From a virus, in IMG/VR virus record IMGVR_UViG_3300044646_002324, positions 1-23,137 of that record: DNA of 23,137 nt. One strand, given 5' to 3'. Positions 1-13,713 of the stretch are shown here, in pieces. How positions within the stretch are numbered: position 1 is the stretch's first letter; each line of letters begins with the position of its first letter. The notes beneath the pieces are model-generated. The model did no database searches and was not told the origin of the DNA. It saw only the letters and a list, made by a program, of their open reading frames with translations. The position numbers and the translations under genes were made by a program.

Positions 1-609
1 TGGCCCCTGGAAAAGATTGATCTGCTGCGCAGCCTTTGGGCGCGCGGCGATAGCGGCTCAGAAATTGGCCGCATCATGGGGATTTCGAAAAACGCCGTGG
101 TGGGTAAGGCGCATCGGCTGCTCCTGCCCCCGCGCCCTTCGCCGATCAAGGCGGGGCGGCGGCAGTATAGCGCGCGGCGCCATGGGGGTGTTGTGGTGCG
201 GCGCGCGGCGGCGGGTGTTGAATTTCCTCCGGCATCCGCCGCCAGAACAAGCTTGGGCGCCACGGGTGCCCCAAGGCCGGGCGCAGCGGCTTTTTCTGCG
301 CAGCATGACGTTTCCTCCCTATCCAACTTCCCCGCGCTGGCGGCGCGCTTAACGAACCCGTCGCCAGCGCGGGGCTTTTTGGGTGGGGCAGAGGCGAAGC
401 GGGAAAAGGCGGCGGCGCAGCCAAGGCCGCAGGTGTTTCAGGTGCGGGGCTGTCAGTTTCCGTTATGGCCGCATGGGGTGCGCGTGGCGCTGGAAGATAT
501 GCGCTTCTGTGATGCGGCCCCACGACGCAACAAGGATGGCCGGCAGGATAGCGCTTATTGCGCGGCGCATCATGCGGTGTGCTTCCAGAAGGCGAGGGAA
601 GCGGCGTGA
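1..609 (+). CDS. GcrA-like cell cycle regulator (5' end cut by window)
   Basis: GcrA is an alphaproteobacterial transcription factor that works with sigma70 at promoters carrying methylated GANTC sites. The frame is open from base 1; only a few N-terminal residues seem to be missing, because the family normally begins M-x-W and the first visible residue is Trp. Visible features are an N-terminal helix-turn-helix (LLRSLWARGDSGSEIGRIM followed by SKNAVVGKAHRL, residues about 8-41), a long low-complexity Ala/Arg/Pro/Gly linker, and a Cys/His C-terminal motif (GCQFPLW, FCDAAPR, YCAAHH) matching the family's CxWP...FC...YC..H signature. The linker DNA contains a strong terminator-like hairpin (330-380), which is odd for coding sequence. 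The stop overlaps the next start by one base (TGATG). This copy is probably phage-borne rather than the host's housekeeping GcrA, given the phage genes that follow; that is inference. Confidence 0.8.
   Translation, partial: WPLEKIDLLRSLWARGDSGSEIGRIMGISKNAVVGKAHRLLLPPRPSPIKAGRRQYSARRHGGVVVRRAAAGVEFPPASAARTSLGATGAPRPGAAAFSAQHDVSSLSNFPALAARLTNPSPARGFLGGAEAKREKAAAQPRPQVFQVRGCQFPLWPHGVRVALEDMRFCDAAPRRNKDGRQDSAYCAAHHAVCFQKAREAA
276..295 (+). terminator. weak terminator-like hairpin inside the GcrA linker
   Basis: A short stem GCCG (276-279) / CGGC (287-290) with a 7-base loop is followed at once by five T residues (291-295). An alternative overlapping stem GCGCAG (281-286) / CTGCGC (296-301) would place the T-run in its loop. 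It lies inside an open reading frame and the stem is short, so a terminator role is uncertain. Its closeness to the stronger hairpin at 330-380 is the main reason to list it. Confidence 0.25.
330..380 (+). terminator. strong intrinsic-terminator-like hairpin inside the GcrA frame
   Basis: A perfect 13-bp stem, CCCCGCGCTGGCG (330-342) with CGCCAGCGCGGGG (362-374), encloses a 19-base loop and is followed by C and five T residues (376-380). This is the textbook form of a Rho-independent terminator on the plus strand. It falls within the poorly conserved linker of the GcrA-like protein and is in frame with it. It may terminate or attenuate transcription within the gene, or be a piece of intergenic DNA captured into the linker. 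Confidence 0.55.
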
Positions 610-758: not shown

Positions 759-1282
759 GCGCCGCCGCCCTCGCCCCTGATCTGCGCGCCCGGATCGCAT
801 CCGCGTGGGATGATCGGCCGCCGCACGGGCTCGAGACTGGCATCTACGCGCCGCTGCCCAAGCGCGGCACCAAGGCGGGTGAGCGCATTTCGTTTGAATT
901 TGCCGAAGAGCTTACCTTGCATGATCCGGCGCATCTGGCGCGGGCGCTGGCGGCCATGGGCCTCACGCGGCGGATCATGACCGCGCCGCGCGCGGGCACG
1001 CCGCTTTGGTATGAAAGCCGCCTGCGCGGGGCTGATGTGCGCGATAGCATGCTGGATTGGCCGGTGCTGCTGATGGCCTCGGCTGAAGGTGTGGTGGATG
1101 CGCATTGGATTTGGCTTTGCGCGGTTTCCGGGAATTGGAAAACGGCTTCGGGTGGCGCGCGGGGGATGCGTGTTGTCTCGCTGGCGCAATTCATCTGGGG
1201 CGTTTCCGAATATGAAGCCGCGCGCAGGTTGTGCCGCGCCAATGGCTGGAAGGGGGTGCTCCGTGTCGGCGACCTTCGATGA
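755..1282 (+). CDS. hypothetical protein, possibly a zinc-less relative of a CHC2 primase domain
   Basis: A 175-aa protein starting at GTG 755, overlapping the previous stop by four bases (GTGA). I do not recognise the family with certainty. The C-terminal stretch (VVSLAQFIWGVSEYEAARRLCRANGW, given here as overlapping pieces of residues about 140-168) has the shape of the helical tail of CHC2-type primase zinc domains, where G-(D/x)-V-x-x-(L/F)-...-G-(V/L)-S-...-E-A-x-x-x-L follows the zinc site. The Cys/His ligands expected for such a zinc ribbon are absent here. The gene sits directly upstream of, and overlaps by 20 bases, a primase/helicase-type ATPase, which suits a replication accessory role. 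That role is inferred from context only. Confidence 0.7.
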   Translation: MSAAALAPDLRARIASAWDDRPPHGLETGIYAPLPKRGTKAGERISFEFAEELTLHDPAHLARALAAMGLTRRIMTAPRAGTPLWYESRLRGADVRDSMLDWPVLLMASAEGVVDAHWIWLCAVSGNWKTASGGARGMRVVSLAQFIWGVSEYEAARRLCRANGWKGVLRVGDLR

Positions 1283-3086
1283 TGGGTTTGACAAGGCGCT
1301 TTCGGATGCCTCCCGCCAGTTGAAGGTGGTGGAAGGTGGCAAGGGGCGGCGTGGTGGTGGCGGTGGTGGTGATTCTTCCCCGCCGGAAGCCCCGCCGGAA
1401 GATTTGGATTGGTCCCGCGCGCCGGTGGAATGCCTGGGCGTCTGCGGTGAGACCTGGTGGTTTGTGGATGCGTATCGGCAGATCATCAGCATTGCGGCGG
1501 GCAAGCTTTCGGCGCGTGGTGCGTTGAATGCCCTGCTGGGTGGTGATGCCACGGGTTGGGCCGCGCGCTACTGGCCGGAATTTGACAAGGAAGGGAAGAA
1601 AACCGGGGATTACAGCCCGCGCAAGCTGCATAAGGCGCTGGCGGAGCGCATGACGGAAGTGGGCTTGTTTGACCCTGCCACGCCGCGGCGCGGGCCTGGC
1701 GTGTGGCTGCATCAGGGCAAGCCTGTGGTGCATGCCGGTGCGCGGGTGTTTTTCCAGGATGGCGCCCGCAAGCCAAGCTTCATTCGTGATGGCATCGCGT
1801 ATATCGCGGCCCGCGCCATTGCCCTGCCCAATGATGGGCAAGATGATCGGCCCGCGCCTGGTGCTGCCGCGCTGGCCGAAGAAGCGGAAGCAGTTTTCCG
1901 ACAATGGAATTGGGAAAACGGCGCATCGGATCGGATGCTGCTGGGTTGGTGGACCATTGCCAATTTGGGCGCCCTGGCGCCCATGCGGCCCTTGGCCATG
2001 ATTGATGGGCAGGAAGGCGCTGGCAAATCCACGCTGCTCGAAATTCTGGCGGCGCTTTGCCCTGCCGGTGAAATGACGAATGACACCACGGAAGCCGGGT
2101 TGCGGCAGCGCATGAATCAGCGCGCGGCGCCGATGATCCTGGATGAATTTGAAGGGGAAGAATTGCTGCGCGTGCTGGCGATGCTGCGGCGCATTGTGAC
2201 CGGGGAAGGTAGCCGGTCCTTCCGTGGGCAGGGCAGCCAGACCGCCGTGGTGACGGAAGTGGTCGGCACCGCCGTCATGGGCGCGATCGGCGCGCCTGTG
2301 GCCAATAGCGCGGAAACCACCCGCATTCTGCGCTTGATGCTCTGGCCCCGCGCCCCGGGCGTGGCAAGCCTGGACAAGGCGGCGTTGCTCAGCTGGTGCC
2401 AGGAAGCCGCCCCTGCATTGTGGGGGCGGGCTATCGCTGCCTGGCCGCGTGTGCAGGCGAATGCGGCGATGATGCGGCGCGTTTTGGATAAGCAGGCCTG
2501 TTCGCCGCGCTATGCGGATATGTTGGGCTGGTTGATCGGCGCGCGGGAAGCCATGGTGGCTGATCTGCCGCTGACGGAAGCGCAGGCGGAAGCCGCGCTG
2601 GAATGGGCCTGGGGTTGGGTGGTGACGGAAGCCGAACAGGCGGAAGACACCACGGCGGCGCGCTGCCTGCAGCATTTGATGGCCTGCCCCATCCTGACCG
2701 GGCCAGGCCATTCGGAAACCGTGGCGGTCTTGGTTGAGCGCGCCTTGCGGGAGCCCGAAGCGCCTGCCACGCGGCTGCTGGCGGAGCTTGGCCTGCGCCT
2801 GGCCCCGTGCCCCATTGATGGGGGTGATCCGGCGCGCGTGGGGCTCTACGTCGCGGCGGGGCGAAGGCCGGCGCTGGCCAGGCTGTATCAGCAAACGGAA
2901 TGGCAGGGCGGGCGATGGGGCACGGTGTTGGCCCAGCTTCGCATGCGCGCCGATGGCGAAGAGGTCAGGGCCCAGCCGATCAAGACGCGGGTGCGCTTTT
3001 CGGGGGAGAATGACAGGGCTCAGGCGGTCTGGCTGGCGCCGGAATTGCTGCCTTCGGGCTCTCGCAAGGGGGTCGGGATGGATTGA
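1263..3086 (+). CDS. phage replication ATPase (primase/helicase type)
   Basis: A 607-aa protein with a P-loop ATPase core in its middle: Walker A GQEGAGKST at residues 249-257 and Walker B MILDE at 291-295 (catalytic D294/E295). The arrangement resembles the C-terminal helicase-like domains of phage/plasmid primases and SF3-like ATPases. The N-terminus (residues 1-50) is a Gly/Pro-rich linker with a run of Gly. The C-terminal part after about 430 is helical and unassigned; no Toprim or canonical primase motif is seen. The frame is open further upstream, but GTG 1263 is preferred because it has AAGGGGG just upstream and gives only a 20-base overlap with the previous gene. Probable role: loading or unwinding at the phage origin, for which the repeat array immediately downstream is the best candidate. 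Confidence 0.75.
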   Translation: MSATFDDGFDKALSDASRQLKVVEGGKGRRGGGGGGDSSPPEAPPEDLDWSRAPVECLGVCGETWWFVDAYRQIISIAAGKLSARGALNALLGGDATGWAARYWPEFDKEGKKTGDYSPRKLHKALAERMTEVGLFDPATPRRGPGVWLHQGKPVVHAGARVFFQDGARKPSFIRDGIAYIAARAIALPNDGQDDRPAPGAAALAEEAEAVFRQWNWENGASDRMLLGWWTIANLGALAPMRPLAMIDGQEGAGKSTLLEILAALCPAGEMTNDTTEAGLRQRMNQRAAPMILDEFEGEELLRVLAMLRRIVTGEGSRSFRGQGSQTAVVTEVVGTAVMGAIGAPVANSAETTRILRLMLWPRAPGVASLDKAALLSWCQEAAPALWGRAIAAWPRVQANAAMMRRVLDKQACSPRYADMLGWLIGAREAMVADLPLTEAQAEAALEWAWGWVVTEAEQAEDTTAARCLQHLMACPILTGPGHSETVAVLVERALREPEAPATRLLAELGLRLAPCPIDGGDPARVGLYVAAGRRPALARLYQQTEWQGGRWGTVLAQLRMRADGEEVRAQPIKTRVRFSGENDRAQAVWLAPELLPSGSRKGVGMD

Positions 3087-3210
3087 AGTGTCCCGCCAAT
3101 TGTCCCGCTAAAGGTGTGATTTGTCCCGCTGGCGCGGGGTAAGTCTTTGAAAACACTGACAGCGGGACAGCGGGACAAGCGGGACAGGGCATTTCCTCAT
3201 GTGTGCGCGG

Positions 3211-3225
3211 GCGCGCGTCGCGCGC
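3211..3225. repeat. GC-only inverted repeat in the centre of the site array
   Basis: GCGCGCG (3211-3217), a single T, then CGCGCGC (3219-3225) form a near-perfect palindrome between the second and third triplets of the TGTCCCGC array. It could extrude as a small cruciform or be a protein-binding dyad. No T-run follows, so it is not a typical terminator. Confidence 0.4.
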
Positions 3226-3269
3226 ATTTACAGGAATACGTGTGTCCCGCATGTACCGCATGTCCCGCT

Positions 3270-3313
3270 GAATAAAATAATAAATAATAACAAATAGATA
3301 GATAGATAGATAA
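3270..3313. repeat. AT-rich tract with TAGA microsatellite
   Basis: About 44 bases almost free of G and C in an otherwise GC-rich phage. The left part is AATAAAATAATAAATAATAA-like. The right part is a tetranucleotide repeat, four TAGA units at 3295-3310 plus TA. It lies between inverted triplets of the GCGGGACA sites, the position expected of a DNA-unwinding element in an iteron origin. A slippage-prone tract affecting spacing of a promoter for the gene at 3375 is an alternative. Confidence 0.6.
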
Positions 3314-3374
3314 GGGACAAAGGGCGGGACAGTTTTTCTGGGTGCGGGACAAATCGGGCGAAAGGGGTGGCGAT

Positions 3375-4097
3375 ATGGCGGATATCAAGAAGATTCAGGG
3401 GCTTTATGACGCGATCGGCGTTGTGCAGCCTGGGGTCTCATGGGTCACTGGCGATGGCATGGCGCGGCGGGTGGTGGAATCAGCCCATGCCCGTGCGATG
3501 GCCGAAGAAGCCCGTGCGCTGGCGGCTCAGTGCCGTCCAGACCCGCTGTTCAGGCTTCCGGCTGAATATGACCCTGAAGCGGCTGTGCGGGCTGCGGAAG
3601 GCCTGGCGCGGCGGGTGGTGCATCAGCGGGTGATGCGGGCGGATAAGCTGGCAGGGCTGCGGGATGGCGGGCGGATCACGGCCGCAGAGTATCGGGCGGG
3701 GCAGGAAATCCGCATGGTGGTGGAATTCCTGGATGGCGGGCGCATGCCGATGGTGCGCAGCCAGTGGGCGGAAAGGTTGGCAAGCGGATCGAACGCTGCT
3801 GAGTGTTTGGTCTATGTCGAGGAAGCGGAGCGTGAGCGCTTCGGCCCCTGGCGCGCCTGGGCAAGGCGGCATCCAGCGCGGCGGCTGCCTCGGCGGTCTG
3901 ATGAAACGCTGGAAGACCTGACGCGCCTGGTGGTGGTGAAGGGCAGGGGCGTCCAACAAGTGGCAGATGCGTTGGCGATTGATAGGCGGAATGCCCTGGT
4001 TCGGCTGCGTCAAAGCCTGGGCTGGTATGTGGAAAGGGCCGGCTGGGCAGGCTGTGAAAATAGCCGCTTGACTTCCCACCCGGTTTCGGTGCTATGA
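3375..4097 (+). CDS. DUF6456-like regulatory/replication protein
   Basis: A 240-aa protein beginning MADIKKIQGLYDAIG; ATG 3375 has AAAGGGG (3361-3367) seven bases upstream, better than the upstream in-frame GTG at 3342, which would start inside the site array. The middle (LAGLRDGGRITAAEYRAG, then a region with EEAERERFG) and the C-terminal helix-turn-helix-like part (residues about 188-222, GRGVQQVADALAIDRRNALVRLRQSL split over this span) resemble the alphaproteobacterial DUF6456 family, often found in prophages upstream of the terminase. It is Arg-rich, consistent with DNA binding. Its position between the repeat array and the late promoter region suggests control of replication or of late genes. 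Family assignment is from pattern memory and is moderate. Confidence 0.65.
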   Translation: MADIKKIQGLYDAIGVVQPGVSWVTGDGMARRVVESAHARAMAEEARALAAQCRPDPLFRLPAEYDPEAAVRAAEGLARRVVHQRVMRADKLAGLRDGGRITAAEYRAGQEIRMVVEFLDGGRMPMVRSQWAERLASGSNAAECLVYVEEAERERFGPWRAWARRHPARRLPRRSDETLEDLTRLVVVKGRGVQQVADALAIDRRNALVRLRQSLGWYVERAGWAGCENSRLTSHPVSVL

Positions 4098-4200: not shown

Positions 4201-4238
4201 TGTGGATAACCGCGGGTCCTCCCCGGCGGATTTGTATG

Positions 4239-13155: not shown

Positions 13156-13713
13156 ATGAAAACCGAAGAACCTGTTTTGTCCCGCCGATCCATCCGCAAG
13201 GTGGATGGCAAGCGCGGCATTTATGAAGTGGCGCCGCTCACCATCCGCGAACGCGCGGCGTATCGTGCGGATATGGCGCGTGAAGGCTGCCGCCTGCCCA
13301 TGCGGTCTGAATTGCTGGAAGGCCTGGCCAGCGCCATGAAGGAATTGGCGCCGGATAACCTGGCGGATTTGCTGGCCGTGATTGCCCGCGCTGAAGCGGC
13401 GCAGGTTGATGGCGCGGAACCCATGGCCAAGGCCGATGAAGATGCGCTGCGCGTCATGGAATCCGCCGCGCGCGCGGTGCCCGCCTATGCCGCCATGTTG
13501 GCGGACCAGGTGCGCTGGTTTTCGCTGATGCCGCTGGTGACTGCGCGGCACGCGCTGCGCGGCTGGCAATCTGACCTGCTGCCCCCCTTCCAGCGCGTGC
13601 GCGGCCTGGTGCCGGATGAGCTTTTGGAAGAATGCGGCGAAGAAGACCTGTCCATCATCGCCGGTGCCGCGATTGACCTGATGCAGGTAACCAAGGCGCA
13701 GGAAAAAAACTAA
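13156..13713 (+). CDS. tail assembly chaperone (gpG-like)
   Basis: A 185-aa protein in the position of lambda gpG, between tail tube and tape measure. It starts MKTEEPVL at ATG 13156, six bases after AAGGG (13145-13149); the frame is open upstream but that part is intergenic repeat DNA. It is helical and acidic-basic mixed, consistent with binding the tape measure during tail assembly. It ends in the sequence GAA AAA AAC TAA, an A AAA AAC slippery heptamer directly before the stop. A -1 shift there continues into the frame at 13710-14018, as in the G/GT pairs of many siphophages. Confidence 0.78.
   Translation: MKTEEPVLSRRSIRKVDGKRGIYEVAPLTIRERAAYRADMAREGCRLPMRSELLEGLASAMKELAPDNLADLLAVIARAEAAQVDGAEPMAKADEDALRVMESAARAVPAYAAMLADQVRWFSLMPLVTARHALRGWQSDLLPPFQRVRGLVPDELLEECGEEDLSIIAGAAIDLMQVTKAQEKN
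13704..13710 (+). promoter_or_regulatory. programmed -1 frameshift slippery site A AAA AAC
   Basis: The heptamer AAAAAAC at 13704-13710 is in the X XXY YYZ register relative to the gpG-like frame (GAA AAA AAC TAA). Slippage by one base gives CTA AGG GGC... from 13710, open without a stop to 14018. Just after the site AAGGG-GCG-CCCTT (13712-13724) could form a small hairpin, and GCCG/CGGC pairs a little further on. A AAA AAC is one of the efficient bacterial slippery heptamers. Confidence 0.75.

Follow-up and report, generated by a model that had tools for sequence, protein, structure and literature searches.

Comparative analysis of the window (the whole stretch of viral DNA analysed here, a virus record of 23,137 bases) suggests, with a probability of roughly 85%, that positions 3087–3374 are the replication origin, or its initiator-binding part, of a temperate tailed phage, and that the iterons it contains would be bound by the helicase encoded immediately upstream. 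From phage to phage the repeated word changes with the helicase while the geometry and position of the array stay, which supports the initial annotation in proposing an iteron origin that has an unwinding element and is linked to the upstream ATPase gene.

A twelve-site array follows the helicase gene

The window starts within a GcrA-like gene, followed in order by orf755, the helicase gene, the array, a gene for a 240-aa protein (the regulator), and the genes for the small and large terminase subunits, portal, protease-capsid and tape measure. A related contig carries a phage integrase and an endolysin, so that the lineage is probably temperate. A close copy of the array and helicase is present in a MAG titled Roseomonas sp., and BLASTN against phage records returned no match. 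The phage-encoded GcrA-like cell-cycle regulator (window 1–609, Pfam PF07750, E 1e-13, truncated by the contig start) is conserved in several relatives, again ahead of the replication module. The window as a whole is strongly depleted in the CcrM methylation site GANTC (22 found against 58 ± 7 expected), and the array contains none. The genes and array elements considered here are as follows.

755–1282, + strand: orf755, small gene of unassigned function, exchanged along with the helicase in the TTCACACC phages (48% identity)
1263–3086, + strand: putative initiator helicase, P-loop/AAA+, 607 aa, Walker-A at about aa 249–256
3089–3129, + strand: triplet 1, TGTCCCGC at 3089, 3101 and 3122, spacing 12 and 21 bp, conserved in 13 distinct relatives
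3130–3161: spacer 1-2, holding TTTGAAAA at 3146–3153
3162–3186, − strand: triplet 2, GCGGGACA at 3162, 3170 and 3179, spacing 8 and 9 bp
3187–3242: central spacer with an alternating purine-pyrimidine (Z-DNA-type) tract, longest run CATGTGTGCGCG at 3198–3209
3243–3268, + strand: triplet 3, TGTCCCGC at 3243, the one-mismatch site TGTACCGC at 3252 and TGTCCCGC at 3261, spacing 9 and 9 bp
3269–3311: spacer 3-4, AT-rich with a TAGA repeat, candidate DNA unwinding element
3312–3351, − strand: triplet 4, the degenerate two-mismatch site AAGGGACA at 3312–3319 and GCGGGACA at 3324 and 3344, spacing 12 and 20 bp
3375–4097, + strand: gene of the downstream regulator (240 aa, without a family match), ruled out as a general site reader

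Our re-count confirmed every element of the array as initially annotated, namely ten exact copies of TGTCCCGC/GCGGGACA and two sites with one and two mismatches, arranged as four triplets in the order +++ --- +++ --- with the spacings listed above. The array fills the gap between the helicase and regulator genes, its first site lying 2 bp past the helicase stop (the same distance as throughout the window's clade) and its last site 23 bp from the ATG at 3375. A search of the whole 23 kb window found a single exact copy of the word outside the array, at 13178. The best-word score of the array region is 21. The highest score was 6 among 25 dinucleotide shuffles and 10 among 62 other windows of the contig; the clustering of the word is far beyond chance. 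The TAGA microsatellite and AT-rich stretch that had been placed inside the right-hand pair do lie between triplets 3 and 4, where A+T content reaches 78% over 3269–3323. The cumulative GC skew, suggested earlier as a check, climbs across nearly the whole window with no inflection and gave no origin signal.

The word is exchanged together with the helicase

The same array is found in 16 viral contigs and in the MAG copy, all with helicases 79–100% identical to that of the window. Among 13 distinct sequences, 80 of 88 positions within the sites are invariant, against 108 of 200 elsewhere in the array region (p = 1e-10). At the position of TGTACCGC in the window, some of these relatives carry the canonical word, and the degenerate AAGGGACA at 3312 is invariant in the clade.

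A natural swap is seen in a second set of contigs (L032–L037 and L062–L069), found via the regulator or via their own helicase. The proteins of L062 are close to those of the window for GcrA (84% identity), regulator (82%), TerS (92%), TerL (94%) and portal (96%), but its helicase is just 27% and its orf755 48% identical. In BLASTN comparisons of the window with these phages, close DNA homology stops upstream and restarts past the array, from window position 3441 on. The array of the swap phages again consists of four triplets laid out as in the window, with the word TTCACACC replacing TGTCCCGC. The initial annotation had proposed looking in related phages for the same sites in the same order: the close clade keeps both word and order, whereas the swap phages keep the layout with a different word. 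Judged by these comparisons, the word changes with the helicase and not with the regulator, so the array is part of the helicase module and is not read by the regulator.

This bears directly on the alternative, also raised initially, that the sites are an operator array through which the 3375–4097 regulator controls its own or early transcription. The regulator's ATG is very near the last site and clustered sites are common among operators, but the site sequence is not conserved with the regulator, which is 78–82% identical in phages whose word differs completely, and most array-bearing relatives have no detectable regulator homologue. A promoter and terminator scan of the array region found neither, and the lack of a sigma-70-like promoter there is weak evidence in the same direction. 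We therefore consider the operator reading extremely unlikely. A tblastn search of phages with the regulator gave no match. The central spacer of the TTCACACC phages (L062, 6884–7150) contains an ATG that is in the regulator's reading frame and has a good ribosome-binding site (TAGGAGAAG); translation from it would read through the array.

Divergent relatives carry different words on one frame

A de novo word search past each helicase stop recovered an array in nearly all of about 30 more divergent relatives, which are mostly prophages of Alphaproteobacteria, an assignment that rests on the title of the MAG and on groups drawn from it. In 27 of 30 loci the region past the helicase stop scores above every shuffle, and in 23 of 30 it also scores above all other windows of its own locus; no array was found in L164, L168 and L171, which are among the most divergent relatives. 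More than 20 distinct words occur across these further relatives, examples being GTGTCCCA, GGTGTTCC, CTGTGAGG, CTGCGAGA, ATGTAACC, TGGCTACC, TGTAACGA, TGTGAACG, CTGTAGCG, TGTCTCAC, CGTCCCCT, CTGTAACC, GGTAACAG, CGTTAGGT, GCGTTACG, GTCCAACC, ACTGTCTC and GGTGTCTA. Two deposited phage genomes also have an array: that of Bdellovibrio phage phi1422 has the word GGTAACAC, and that of Synechococcus phage MinM1, with the word TGTGAG, was read by eye and fails the stricter of our two tests. Each phage contig has one array.

The frame is shared by nearly all arrays. Triplets 2 and 3 are mutually inverted and their spacing is mirrored (8/9 and 9/8), triplets 3 and 4 are inverted around an AT-rich spacer, and the outer triplets are spaced at about 10–12 bp, occasionally about 20; in some triplets just one or two copies are recognisable. 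A universal +++ --- +++ --- order was rejected, as triplet 1 is reversed, and so has the same direction as triplet 2, in L145, L148, L149, L150, L152 and L154. In L191–L193 extra sequence separates the array from the helicase stop by about 0.7–1.2 kb, and the L191 array consists of exactly 12 sites, grouped as four triplets. Because these three loci keep the frame at such a distance, the array is a cis element that can be separated from the gene and does not belong to its 3′ end. A constant frame with an exchangeable word is unusual. Strings resembling TTGAAAA (which are similar to TTTGAAAA) and AATGGGTTAAG recur in the AT-richer spacers 1-2 and 3-4 of many loci whose words are unrelated.

The inverted triplets could instead form a structural element, either a large hairpin or cruciform pairing triplet 2 with 3 and 1 with 4, as in the pRN1 origin, or an RNA structure past the gene. 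The single-strand folding of the region beats that of shuffled sequences (z = −5.3), the mirrored arrangement of triplets 2 and 3 is present in nearly all loci, and SF3 initiators of the pRN1 type do use a stem-loop 3′ of their gene (PMC4234260). However, 25 of the 69 mirrored site pairs deviate from the consensus and just one of these has the identical change on both sides, and one clade has triplets 1 and 2 in the same direction, unable to pair, with the word still kept. As paired changes are absent, the sites seem to be kept singly, as protein sites are, which argues against a hairpin and makes this reading quite unlikely.

The helicase is the candidate reader

All 21 aligned members of the helicase family match PHROG 21086 (unknown function) and PHROG 35358 (DNA primase), the latter over its helicase part (positions 464–839 of 968 for the window protein). 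Pfam gave only weak P-loop/AAA matches to these members, with D5_N/DUF927-type domains unmatched, and an NCBIfam scan gave no match for the members it covered. A sequence search of solved structures yielded P-loop matches only and no close relative. The AlphaFold models have a pLDDT of 46 for the whole helicase and 65 for its C-terminal 198 aa, too poor to claim a fold, and Foldseek and VIA-align searches with predicted helicase models gave matches at noise level only. Searching with the helicase alignment identified clear relatives (E below 1e-15) in 23 of 299 genomes of the MAG's family and fewer in its class and phylum; a scan of viral contigs with the divergent helicase L145 found nothing.

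Within this family, word similarity correlates weakly with C-terminal domain identity (r = 0.11, p = 0.045) and shows no correlation with ATPase domain identity (r = 0, p = 0.46). The C-terminal domain is the candidate reader. The sister helicases L158 and L159, 73% identical in the C-terminal region, go with the words GTGTCCCA and GGTGTTCC, whose cores are TGTCCC and TGTTCC.

Since orf755 is exchanged together with the helicase, it could read the sites in the clade to which the window belongs. More generally, the array might serve as an origin or a partition-like locus recognised by some other protein that moves with the helicase, such as orf755, or might act in segregation or incompatibility rather than initiation. 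Arrays of iterons in plasmids also serve incompatibility and partition. However, orf755 has no family match in our searches, MinM1 has the same array with a CHC2 zinc-ribbon/Toprim primase and a small ORF upstream of the helicase instead, and the helicase, through which every array was found, is common to all of them. We regard this reading as very unlikely. A host factor such as DnaA was likewise rejected as reader, as the words differ between lineages and no DnaA box occurs in 3087–3374 at up to one mismatch. One exact DnaA-box-like TTATCCACA lies at 4201–4209 on the − strand, in the gap after the regulator gene.

With the helicase as initiator, we propose that the protein recognises the 8-bp words, its variable C-terminal domain being the most likely binding part, and assembles on the triplets. 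It would then open the AT-rich stretch between triplets 3 and 4, and perhaps spacer 1-2 as well, and load itself at the opened region for replication. The 12 sites, in two mirror-related halves of six, might provide one site for each subunit of two hexamers. Binding, the binding domain, unwinding, replication and the two-hexamer count are all inferred.

Comparison with known origins

Classical iteron plasmids (RepA/RepE/TrfA) resemble the window in having short repeats beside an AT-rich region and an initiator gene. Their repeats are direct, their initiator is not a helicase and DnaA boxes are usual, in contrast to the alternating repeat direction, helicase partner and box-free array found here. 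Phage P4 is similar in layout: its crr lies directly 3′ of alpha and, within about 270 bp, contains ten type-1 repeats of 8 bp that occur in both orientations (P4 record), but these form two 120-bp direct repeats (++--+ ++--+) and P4 has a separate ori. Comparison of P4 alpha with the helicase family gave an hhalign probability of 6.7%, confined to the Walker-A region, which does not indicate homology.

For the self-loading initiator helicases of SaPIs and of SCCmec (Cch2), iterons lie immediately 3′ of the helicase gene; in Cch2 they are bound by the C-terminal domain (PMC7581432, PMC6092414), and PICI origins consist of two iteron sets around an AT-rich region (PMC6092414). The window shares this order, its helicase gene preceding sets of short iterons that surround an AT-rich region, and in SaPIs and PICIs, as in this family, each element has its own iteron sequence and rep allele (PMC6092414, PMC7581432). 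The window array likewise starts just past the gene, and its triplets 3 and 4 flank the 78% A+T stretch as the two sets would, with triplets 1 and 2 being extra. In contrast to these satellites, the arrays here belong to temperate phages that themselves encode terminase, portal, capsid and integrase: the window has terminase, portal, capsid and tape-measure genes, the integrase is in a close relative, and the window is thus not a satellite. The present arrays further differ in their four alternating triplets, fixed frame and central purine-pyrimidine tract. A Pfam scan of 21 members of the helicase family gave no match to the SaPI-type helicase domains of SaPI/PICI Rep and Cch2.

The primase-helicase ORF904 of pRN1 has a C-terminal DNA-binding domain and an origin directly 3′ of its gene, and in origins of this type the structure is constant and the sequence varies (PMC4234260). 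That origin is one stem-loop with no iterons, whereas here 8-bp words are repeated and paired changes are lacking (1/25).

If the helicase is the initiator, the uncharacterised phage helicase family PHROG 21086 gains a likely function, and the SaPI/PICI-like principle of a self-loading helicase with iterons 3′ of its gene would extend to complete temperate phages, in Alphaproteobacteria and beyond. The more than 20 natural helicase-word pairs on a constant frame would make an initiator DNA-recognition code testable by domain swaps, and such pairs could serve as orthogonal replicons.

The central purine-pyrimidine tract

An alternating purine-pyrimidine run of 11–28 nt is present in spacer 2-3 of about two thirds of the loci, and in 19 of 30 loci it is longer than in 99% of same-size windows of the same locus (p < 0.01); the run in the window itself measures 12 nt, with p = 0.005 in a comparison with other windows of the contig. 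Tracts of this kind can form Z-DNA, and their recurrence at the centre of the array raises a new question on origin topology. More tentatively, and with the odds somewhat against it, the arrays may represent an undescribed class of origin, in which a fixed 12-site frame surrounds a Z-DNA-type tract, the helicase assembles on it as two hexamers with one site for each subunit, and the word is freely exchanged along with the helicase, making related phages orthogonal to one another as replicons. We found no description of this type of array in the open-access literature, and 'undescribed' is provisional to that extent. The tract is absent in the clade of L145, L148–L150, L152, L154 and L157, some members of which have inverted repeats instead. 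In L150 the central spacer, about 80–131 bp past the helicase stop, has no purine-pyrimidine tract and contains a perfect 12-bp inverted repeat, TTTCCCCTATGG...CCATAGGGGAAA.
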